A stretch of DNA of 64,000 nt, taken from positions 20,051 to 84,050 of the forward strand of contig AOIR01000003.1 in assembly GCA_000337115.1 (NCBI GenBank), given 5' to 3'. Each line of letters begins with the position of its first letter. The stretch's first letter is position 1. Shown here one piece after another: positions 60,368-63,857 of the stretch. The notes beneath the pieces were generated by a model. That model searched no databases. It saw nothing but the letters and a program-made list of their open reading frames with translations, and had not been told where the DNA came from. A program made the translations under genes and the position numbers. This DNA comes from Natrinema thermotolerans DSM 11552 (GTDB lineage Archaea; Halobacteriota; Halobacteria; Halobacteriales; Natrialbaceae).

Positions 60368-61693
60368 TCAGCCGAGGAGAGGAACGACCATCACCAGCGC
60401 GGCGCTGGCGAGCGCGCCGGACAGCGTCGCGAGGAAGTTCACGCTCTGATTACCCAGCAGCGGCCCCTCGAGGGTCGCCCCGAGGAGGCTGTCGACGGTC
60501 ATCCCGACGACGCCGGCCGCGACGACGATCGCCCCGCCGACGAGGTCGATCTCGGGGAAGACGCCGGCGGTGATGGCGGCGACGACGGTCGCGCCCGTGA
60601 GACCGGCGAGTTCGCCCTGCCAGGTGACGCCGCCGTCGGTGCCTGGTTCGACCGGCTCGAGCGTCGTGATAAGCCGGGGGCGATCGAAGACGCTACCGAT
60701 CTCGCTCGAGAGGGTGTCGCTCATTGCGGTCGCGATCGAGCCGGCGAAGGCGAAGAGGAACAGGTCGGGTTCGTGGGGGAGCAACCCGGCGTCGCTGGCC
60801 GCGTAGCCGAGGACGGCGACGAGCGCGACCGCGGCGTTGCCCAGGACGTTGCCGCTGCCGCGGGCCCCGTTGTTGTCCTCGGCGACACCGAGTTCCGTCT
60901 TGCGGTCGTACCGGAACTTCGTCGAGAGGCCGCCGATGGCGAAGAAGGAAACGAGGACGGCGACCCAGCCGTACCCCCCGAGAACGATCGTCAGCAAGAC
61001 GAGCAAGACGCCGGTGAGCATCCCGGCGATCGAGGCCGTCTCGAGGGCGTAGGAGGCGTAGCCGAGCGCGACCGTGACCGCGAGCGCGACGACGATCTCG
61101 AGGCGGCCGATTGAGGGGCCGAGTTCGGCGAGCAGCCACAGCAGGAGGCCGACCGAGAGGACGACGATCGGGTCGTCGGACCGCAACAGCATGTCCCGGA
61201 GCAACGCGCCGAGAACGGCACCGCTCGCGGCCAGAAAGACGACGACCGGCAGCGCCGCGGCGACGGGATCGCCGGCGAGAGCCCGCGTCCCCGCCAGTCC
61301 GGCGACGGCGGCCAGGCTCCCCGCGAGACAGAAACCGGCGACGCGAACGACGTCGTTGTCCGTCCGGAGCCTGACGAGTTGCTCGCCGAGATTACCGTAG
61401 CCGACCAGCAGGATCGTCCCGACGAAGACGGCGACCGGCATCGACGCCGCGGTCGCGATGAGCCCGAGGGCAACCCCCGCGAGGACGAACGTGATCAGGC
61501 CGTACAGCCGCGCGTCCTCGTAGTCGCCCGGGTAGGCGAGCAGGTCGAACAGCGCCCCCTCGGGGACGAGGTAGGCCCCGAGCAGGACGACGCCCGCGAC
61601 GGCGGCACCTACCTGCGGACCGAAGAGCGGCACGGCGAGCGAGAGCGTACAGAGCGCCGCGAACACGCCGGCTCGCCGAACGGGTGCTGTCAC
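60368..61693 (-). CDS. DUF92 family membrane protein
   Basis: A 441-residue polytopic protein with roughly eleven to twelve hydrophobic segments. The C-terminal half has the DUF92/TMEM19 signature region: FFAIGGLSTKFRYDRK, RGSGNVLGNA, ATAMSDTLSSEIGS and LAGLTGA, plus DSLLGATLEG. The function of the family is not established; in some archaea and plants it is linked to lipid phosphates (phytyl phosphate kinase VTE6 belongs here), so a prenyl phosphate role is possible. The cis-prenyltransferase genes are next door. Confidence 0.85.
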   Translation of the reverse strand: MTAPVRRAGVFAALCTLSLAVPLFGPQVGAAVAGVVLLGAYLVPEGALFDLLAYPGDYEDARLYGLITFVLAGVALGLIATAASMPVAVFVGTILLVGYGNLGEQLVRLRTDNDVVRVAGFCLAGSLAAVAGLAGTRALAGDPVAAALPVVVFLAASGAVLGALLRDMLLRSDDPIVVLSVGLLLWLLAELGPSIGRLEIVVALAVTVALGYASYALETASIAGMLTGVLLVLLTIVLGGYGWVAVLVSFFAIGGLSTKFRYDRKTELGVAEDNNGARGSGNVLGNAAVALVAVLGYAASDAGLLPHEPDLFLFAFAGSIATAMSDTLSSEIGSVFDRPRLITTLEPVEPGTDGGVTWQGELAGLTGATVVAAITAGVFPEIDLVGGAIVVAAGVVGMTVDSLLGATLEGPLLGNQSVNFLATLSGALASAALVMVVPLLG

Positions 61694-61852: not shown

Positions 61853-62458
61853 GTGGGACTGTACGAACGGTACCTCGCCTTTCGGATCCGGCGTCACGAC
61901 GGCGACCCGCCCGATCACGTCGCGCTCGTGATCACCGAACGCGATCTCCTAGAACGGGGAGCCTACGAGACGCTGACCGATTTCTTCGAGTGGGCCACGG
62001 AGTACGCATCGCGGATTACGGTCTACGTGAGCGTCCTTGACGAGGCCGCGGTGCCGGCCCTGCAACGGGAACTCGAGACGATCGATGCGCCGCGGCCGGT
62101 CGCGGTTCGCGGCCCGGGCGATCGGGCCCGGGCCGACGCGCCGATCCGAATCGGGATCGGACTCGGCGGGAAACACGAGTTCACCAGCGCGGTCCGGACG
62201 CTAGCCGAACGGGTCGAAGCGGGCGAGTTAGCGCCCGACGAGATCGACGACGACAGCGTCGAGGACCATCTGATCTTCCCGTCGGAGCCGGACCTGGTGA
62301 TCAAGACCGGAGCCGAACGGCTCTCGGATTTCATGATCTGGCAGTCGGTCTACTCGGAACTGTACTTCACCGACGTGAACTGGCGGAACTTCCGCAAACG
62401 GGACTTCCTCCGGGCGGTCCGAGAGTACTGTAACCGGTCGCGGCGGTTCGGCCGCTGA
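61853..62458 (+). CDS. Degenerate cis-prenyltransferase homologue, probable accessory subunit
   Basis: A 201-residue protein starting at GTG, related to undecaprenyl diphosphate synthase. It keeps the C-terminal half: KTGAERLSDF, the dimer-interface WQSVYSELYFTD and the C-terminal RRFG (RxG motif). It lacks the N-terminal catalytic loop: where active enzymes have HVA-IMDGNRRWA, this one has HVALVITERDL, with about 20 residues missing. The full enzyme homologue at 62925 has the loop but lacks WQ-YSELYFT and RRFG, so the two look like halves of one heteromer, as with NgBR/DHDDS in eukaryotes. Homology is clear; the partnership is inferred. Confidence 0.85.
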   Translation: MGLYERYLAFRIRRHDGDPPDHVALVITERDLLERGAYETLTDFFEWATEYASRITVYVSVLDEAAVPALQRELETIDAPRPVAVRGPGDRARADAPIRIGIGLGGKHEFTSAVRTLAERVEAGELAPDEIDDDSVEDHLIFPSEPDLVIKTGAERLSDFMIWQSVYSELYFTDVNWRNFRKRDFLRAVREYCNRSRRFGR

Positions 62459-62465
62459 TCGCGGG

Positions 62466-62858
62466 TCACGGGGACGCGTTCGGCCCCGATCGGTCGGGCA
62501 GCGATGGGTCCGTGAACGGATCCGCGGCCGCGACGACCGGGCGCTCGAGACGGATTCGACCGGTTTCACCGTCGTACTCGAGAACGTCCGCACCCGCGAG
62601 TTTCGGGAGGACGACGTGGACGAGCGACGCTTCAACGGTCCGCTCGTCGGCGCCGTCCCGGTCGGCGACGACGGCGGCCAATTCGGTGACCGAAACCGGT
62701 GGTTCGGCCGCCGATAGCGCGTGCAAGGCGAGACGCGTCCGCGGGTTCGCGAGGAGCGTGTATGCCTCGTCGAGCGGGACGTTCGTCAGCCGAACGAACC
62801 GTTCGACGTCGACTGGAGGGGCGGTGTTCGGAGTCGGCATCACGACTACTACTGCCAT
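62466..62858 (-). CDS. DUF7344-type winged-helix protein
   Basis: A 130-residue haloarchaeal protein. After a short tail it has a winged-helix domain (VPLDEAYTLLANPRTRLAL near 27-45, then VHVVLPKLAGADVLEYD near 80-96) typical of DUF7344. It probably binds DNA, but no target is known. Start alternatives are 62858 or the second Met at 62840. It sits between the two cis-prenyltransferase homologues, on the strand of the second. Confidence 0.75.
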   Translation of the reverse strand: MAVVVVMPTPNTAPPVDVERFVRLTNVPLDEAYTLLANPRTRLALHALSAAEPPVSVTELAAVVADRDGADERTVEASLVHVVLPKLAGADVLEYDGETGRIRLERPVVAAADPFTDPSLPDRSGPNASP

Positions 62859-62924
62859 AATGACAGTGAAATGTCTTCTGGTGGCTGAAGTAGTCGTTAC
62901 CGGTGGGGACGAGAATCGGTGCGG

Positions 62925-63857
62925 TCAGTCCGCGGCCTGACTACCCGAGTCACCGGCCTCGAGATCGTCGGCGTCGGGCCGTTCGGCGGAGGGCAGCGAG
63001 TCGCGGAACCGATCGACGATCGCTCGGGCCTCGGCGAGTTCGGTCTCGCTGACGGCACCGAGCAGGGCCAGCGCGCGCCGGGCGCGGGTCCGCCGCCACG
63101 ATTCCGCCCGGTGTTCGTAGGTTCGGATCCCCCGGAGGAAGTCGGCCTTGGAGAACTCCGGCCAGTAGGGTGTACAGAAGAAGACGGCCGCCTCGTTGCC
63201 GTTGGCGTGCCAGGGCAGGAAGTTCGAGGTACGCTCTTCGCCGGCGGGTCGAATTATCAGGTCGACGTCCCGGATCGGCCGGTCGTATAGCCGGCGTTCG
63301 ATGTCCTCGATGTCGATCTCCTCGGGGTCGAGGTCGCCCGCCTCCACGTCCGCGGCGACTCCGCGGGTGGCCTCGAGCAGTCGCGAGCGACCGCCGTACG
63401 CAAGCGCGATGTTGAGCGTGAACCGGTCGTAGTCGTGCGTGCGGCGTTCGGCGTATTCGACGGCGTGTTGGACCCGCTCGGGGAGCATGTCCGTCTCGCC
63501 GATCACGCGAATGCAGACCTCGTTGTCGTGGACGCGGTCGGCGTCCGCGAACTCGTGGAGTTTCTCACACAGCAGGTCGAACAGCGCCTCGTTTTGCTCG
63601 TCGGGACGGTCGAAGTTCTCCGTCGAGAACGTGTACAGCGTCAACTCCTCGACGCCGATGTCCTGACACCACTCGAGGACGTGTTCGGTCGTCTTGGCCC
63701 CCGCACGGTGGCCTTCGTGGGCATCGCTGCCCCGCTTGCGGGCGTATCGTCGGTTGCCGTCTTGAATGACGGCGACGTGGGTCGGCGCACCCGACACTTC
63801 GCGGGCGAGCAACCGCTCGTACGCCGCGTCGACGCGTTTTCGGAGCCACCGCTTCAT
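62925..63857 (-). CDS. uppS: Cis-prenyltransferase (undecaprenyl/dolichyl diphosphate synthase type)
   Basis: A 310-residue enzyme that extends isoprenyl diphosphates in cis, giving the long carrier lipid for protein glycosylation. It has the catalytic loop HVAVIQDGNRRYA near residues 27-39, TLYTFSTENF, ALAYGG and the diphosphate-binding IRPAGEERTSNF. Missing are the WQ-Y-ELYFT interface (here WHANGNEAAVFFC) and the C-terminal RRFG. An extra C-terminal acidic tail of about 45 residues follows. The partner at 61853 carries the missing parts. Start at MKRWLRKRV rather than six codons upstream. Confidence 0.92.
   Translation of the reverse strand: MKRWLRKRVDAAYERLLAREVSGAPTHVAVIQDGNRRYARKRGSDAHEGHRAGAKTTEHVLEWCQDIGVEELTLYTFSTENFDRPDEQNEALFDLLCEKLHEFADADRVHDNEVCIRVIGETDMLPERVQHAVEYAERRTHDYDRFTLNIALAYGGRSRLLEATRGVAADVEAGDLDPEEIDIEDIERRLYDRPIRDVDLIIRPAGEERTSNFLPWHANGNEAAVFFCTPYWPEFSKADFLRGIRTYEHRAESWRRTRARRALALLGAVSETELAEARAIVDRFRDSLPSAERPDADDLEAGDSGSQAAD

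Follow-up and report, generated by a model that had tools for sequence, protein, structure and literature searches.

Convergent cis-prenyltransferase genes of Natrinema thermotolerans as predicted partners in one heteromeric enzyme

Two cis-prenyltransferase (cPT) homologues adjoin in the window, the 64,000-nucleotide stretch of Natrinema thermotolerans DNA analysed here, which raises the question of whether they act as two synthases or as two subunits of one. The prediction that we develop is that haloarchaea use a two-subunit cPT, in which the second uppS-like gene would encode a non-catalytic partner and not a second synthase. Haloarchaea are genetically tractable and their dolichol-based glycosylation is well studied.

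Division of the cPT motifs between two proteins

We named the two proteins NON (61853..62458, plus strand, 201 aa), a non-catalytic cPT homologue and predicted partner subunit, and CAT (62925..63857, minus strand), a catalytic cPT subunit with a C-terminal extension and no RxG motif. The initial annotation had placed both in a single interval, 61853-63857; both ORFs are indeed present there, but the strands were omitted and the genes are convergent, so that NON and CAT do not form one operon. NON begins at a GTG whose position is common to aligned Halobacteria orthologues. The longest CAT ORF begins at GTG 63875, upstream of the ATG at 63857, which we take as the start in agreement with orthologue starts (e.g. 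MKRWLRRR in L046 and MKRWLRQR in L053). CAT matches nearly all of Pfam PF01255 (profile 1-216/219, E 2.6e-67) and NON only its C-terminal half (profile 117-219, E 1.6e-25); likewise, comparison with E. coli UPPS gave a match across the whole domain for CAT (E 1.7e-43) and over the C-terminal half for NON (E 7e-25). Beyond these two, the genome yielded no PF01255 gene.

The motifs of the family are shared out between the two. Profile alignment to CAT showed that, at the site of the catalytic DGNRR loop, NON reads HVALVITERDLL (61916..61951, plus strand). It retains WQSVYSELYFTD, the ELYFTD segment (62357..62374, plus strand), in which E169, F172, T173 and D174 are invariant in 42 phylum-wide sequences, and a C-terminal end, RSRRFGR, with R-F-G (the RxG motif) at 62444..62452 (plus strand); neither R198 nor G200 varies among 25 Halobacteria or across the same 42 sequences. 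CAT carries VIQDGNRRYA, with the DGNRR substrate-binding and catalytic loop at 63747..63761 (minus strand) invariant in 21 Halobacteria CAT, together with RPAGEERTSNF and PWHANGNEAAVFFC, and both ELYFT and RxG are absent from it. The initial annotation had described the motif content of both proteins in these terms, and the ORFs bear it out.

The same division recurs across the phylum, and it is therefore not a matter of chance. None of 198 distinct NON sequences contains DG[NS]R, and their C-terminal end has RxG in 195, with RKFGK in the remaining 3. The DGN loop is found in 144 of 147 CAT, the 3 misses being truncated ORFs, and RxG is absent from the homodimer position in 21 aligned Halobacteria CAT. 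An RxG pattern after WPxF occurs in 6/147 CAT phylum-wide; most of the six are chance strings, and 1-2 are plausible. Within NON, R195, R197, R198, G200, W163-Q164 and E169...D174 are invariant or nearly so in 25 Halobacteria; the 42 phylum-wide sequences share 23 invariant columns, mostly in the C-terminal half and including R197, R198 and G200.

Several variants were observed alongside these patterns. An Archaeoglobi-type CAT (L069, from genome G349 of family f15) ends in ...RTWQVRRFGGQKYK, with RRFGG near the homodimer position, which could be a vestige or have arisen by chance. In the R-x-G-G-E-x-R-x-S motif, the RTGG of nearly all other aligned Halobacteria corresponds to RPAG in the window CAT. 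A NON from the haloarchaeal genus g27 (L183:2675-3427) carries a mid-protein acidic insertion of some 30 residues, and in several genomes of this genus NON was found as two matched pieces. Two highly diverged NON, L198:2886-3377 (G250) and L181 (G217), still end in RRFGA and RRYGR.

AlphaFold2 modelled NON (pLDDT 85.2, pTM 0.83) with the cPT fold over its whole length, residues 1-201. The model superposes on a DHDDS chain with a VIA Z of 13.9 (rmsd 3.5, 192 aligned) and on an NgBR chain with 13.0 (rmsd 4.2, 176 aligned), tied with bacterial UPPS. The CAT model, built on ten sequences and of only moderate pLDDT (72.1) with a low-confidence C-terminal extension, matches cPT chains including DHDDS at VIA Z 22-24. 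As models, both speak to the fold and not to pairing.

Orthology with the Methanosarcina mazei pair and co-occurrence in the phylum

Genome G447 holds exactly three PF01255 genes, and the third protein agrees with MM_0014 of M. mazei (PDB chain) at 217/219 residues, from which we take G447 to be M. mazei or a near strain. In our tree, NON forms a single clade (100/100), as does CAT (90/87), and the MM_0014-type sequences form a separate one (100/100); of the other two G447 proteins, one falls inside the NON clade and one inside the CAT clade. PMC8131916, citing Emi et al. 2019, reports a heteromeric cPT composed of M. mazei MM_0618 and MM_1083, with C45-50 products, which bears out the heteromeric M. 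mazei enzyme mentioned in the initial annotation. Because the window proteins share their clades with these M. mazei paralogues, for which that paper reports a heteromer, the two pairs are orthologous catalytic and non-catalytic subunits within a shared phylum. By this clade membership, the window pair is the haloarchaeal orthologue of a known heteromeric enzyme type and nothing new in kind. The two differ in setting: the Methanosarcina genes are unlinked, whereas those of the window are convergent neighbours beside a DUF92 gene.

Two kinds of self-sufficient cPT served for comparison. The homodimeric E. coli UPPS is alike in fold but has both motifs in a single chain, and neither protein of the window pair unites a DGN loop and RxG in this way. 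MM_0014 works as a homodimer without RxG and with a TLGG tail, according to PMC8131916. Terminal TLGG is present in 13/13 MM_0014-type sequences; CAT has neither this terminus nor membership of the MM_0014/MA1831-type clade.

PF01255 genes were detected in 242/242 Halobacteria genomes, nearly always in exactly two copies, and a NON match was likewise found in 242/242. By our own count from the phylum table, 225 of 247 genomes have two copies, 14 have more than two, 5 have one and 3 have none. The NON profile matched 45 of 48 hand-picked phylum genomes, the match being weak in a few (e.g. G250); the 3 misses belong to family f18, where PF01255 is wholly absent. Including one genome from the class survey (G071), six genomes have a single copy, CAT in G315, G350 and G386 and NON in G071, G381 and G394. 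All six are in at least 80 contigs and the three with CAT only are 86-89% complete, so these are sporadic drafts with a pattern such as assembly gaps would give. The initial annotation had suggested surveying whether genomes that lose one gene also lose the other, and the answer agrees with its reading: a single partner is seen only in sporadic drafts, and family f18 is without both. The f18 genomes (G248, G257 and G266), with no PF01255 gene at all, are 86-91% complete. One or two extra PF01255 genes occur in haloarchaeal G067, G194, G225 and a few others, and in these three named genomes the extra gene is a second full-length CAT-type match.

Gene neighbourhood

Upstream of NON and head-to-head with it, across a 159-base intergenic region, lies the gene for a DUF92 (arCOG02245) membrane protein (60368..61693, minus strand; PF01940, E 3.9e-57), single-copy in the genome and a putative prenyl-lipid kinase. 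This head-to-head arrangement was found at 30/30 loci of the same family, 40/44 of other Halobacteria, 12/25 of other classes and 12/80 named loci (Methanoperedens, Methanocellales and Halobacterium), and CAT stands tail-to-tail with NON at 23/30, 31/44, 11/25 and 9/80, respectively, both sets of counts including loci whose flanks are too short to decide. At the tail-to-tail loci, the gap between NON and CAT is down to a few bases or gives way to small overlaps.

DUF92 includes plant VTE6, a phytyl-phosphate kinase. The activity of VTE6 is stated in PMC10849223. The DUF92 protein of the window is probably a prenyl-lipid kinase. Its N-terminal half, about 200 aa, is unmatched; Pfam did not find in it the Sec59-like N-terminal domain that HHpred reportedly detects in a Methanosarcina DUF92 homologue (PMC5898192). 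We rejected the DUF92 link as a novelty, because the DUF92 (arCOG02245)-uppS gene context, and a predicted function as a kinase of isoprenoid metabolism, were already described by Makarova, Galperin and Koonin in 2015 (PMC5898192). The neighbourhood is the same, with the difference that here DUF92 is head-to-head with the non-catalytic subunit specifically, which ties the predicted partner NON to a conserved putative prenyl-lipid kinase.

Between NON and CAT lies a DUF7344 ORF (62466..62858, minus strand; PF24035, E 1.6e-12), which the initial annotation had regarded as unrelated. This view holds: DUF7344 was detected at 18/30 loci of the family but at no locus of the other sets examined, and the gene is a local, lineage-specific insertion that stands outside the enzyme.

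A predicted heteromer and its counterparts

Read from sequence, these observations make it very probable that NON and CAT are subunits of one heteromeric cPT. The complementary motifs, the near-perfect co-occurrence (242 Halobacteria and about 200 other phylum genomes) and the conserved tail-to-tail order all argue for it and, together with the M. mazei orthology, support the single haloarchaeal synthase put forward in the initial annotation, with the physical association, the activity and a dolichol-type product as its inferred parts. In such an enzyme, the CAT pocket would bind the allylic primer and IPP, and CAT would elongate the chain; NON, unable to catalyse, would dock on CAT by the face that cPT dimers ordinarily use, and its C-terminal RxG would act in trans by entering the CAT active site, where it would complete the IPP/Mg site. 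The enzyme would thereby yield a polyprenyl diphosphate, which would give rise to the dolichyl phosphate carrier of archaeal glycosylation. Against a heteromer stand the RxG-less MM_0014 homodimer, the convergent orientation of the genes, their separation in Methanosarcina and the RRFGG of the L069 CAT.

The first of these points opens another reading, in which CAT would be a self-sufficient RxG-less homodimer like MM_0014, where RxG is dispensable, and NON would work independently, for example in a lipid-binding or regulatory role with the DUF92 kinase; NON lies next to DUF92 more often than next to CAT (40/44 head-to-head versus 31/44 among the Halobacteria loci). We regard this as improbable: the M. 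mazei orthologues of NON and CAT form a heteromer, as stated in PMC8131916, CAT has no TLGG tail and is placed apart from the MM_0014 clade, and the co-occurrence of the two genes is nearly without exception. A homodimeric CAT is conceivable, yet it would leave unexplained both the near-absence of NON loss and the retention in NON of an RxG that has no evident use save in a partner's active site. That NON might instead be a paralogue in decay or a pseudogene and serve no function, as the loss of its catalytic loop and its faster evolution than CAT could suggest, is scarcely credible given a match in every one of the 242 Halobacteria genomes and the invariant, mostly C-terminal columns shared across the phylum.

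The predicted heteromer resembles the eukaryotic DHDDS/NgBR (Rer2/Nus1) enzymes in that an RxG-less catalytic subunit is joined by a partner with a terminal RxG and no DGN loop. The conserved RxG of NgBR is critical for activity (Grabinska et al. 2017, listed as reference 27 of PMC8131916) and takes part in IPP binding (PMC7839719). The initial annotation had the roles split exactly as in NgBR/DHDDS; the division of motifs stands, but "exactly" does not, since NON retains the bacterial-like ELYFTD that is lost in human NgBR (TEIVSL). NON, at 201 aa and with a model that fits the cPT fold from residue 1, also has no counterpart of the N-terminal membrane domain of NgBR. At the loop site, LVITE is common to human NUS1 and NON, and PVHMGLVITEVE of human NUS1 (letters of the PDB chain) corresponds to PDHVALVITERD of NON.

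What is at stake in this comparison is whether the heteromer represents one invention or two. NgBR/NUS1 and NON gave a full-length profile match with E 5e-5, and the N-terminal half of NUS1 scored 17.9 bits against the NON N-half profile, where the best of 1000 shuffles reached 6.5, versus 6.0 against that of CAT. The AU test did not reject a grouping of NON with NUS1 (p 0.27), nor any of the finished alternatives, and with a NUS1 branch length of about 9 the tree is uninformative on this point. It is conceivable, although we think it rather unlikely, that a single ancestral non-catalytic subunit gave rise both to the archaeal one and to NgBR/Nus1, the eukaryotic heteromer being inherited from archaea and not reinvented.

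Closer to the window pair, a heteromeric cPT of Archaeoglobus fulgidus, from Halobacteria's own phylum, is said to have been described by Sompiyachoke et al. in 2022 with a catalytic/non-catalytic split as here. We found a NON/CAT pair in family f15, which we take to be Archaeoglobi; the A. fulgidus heteromer belongs to a thermophile, whereas the window pair is haloarchaeal.
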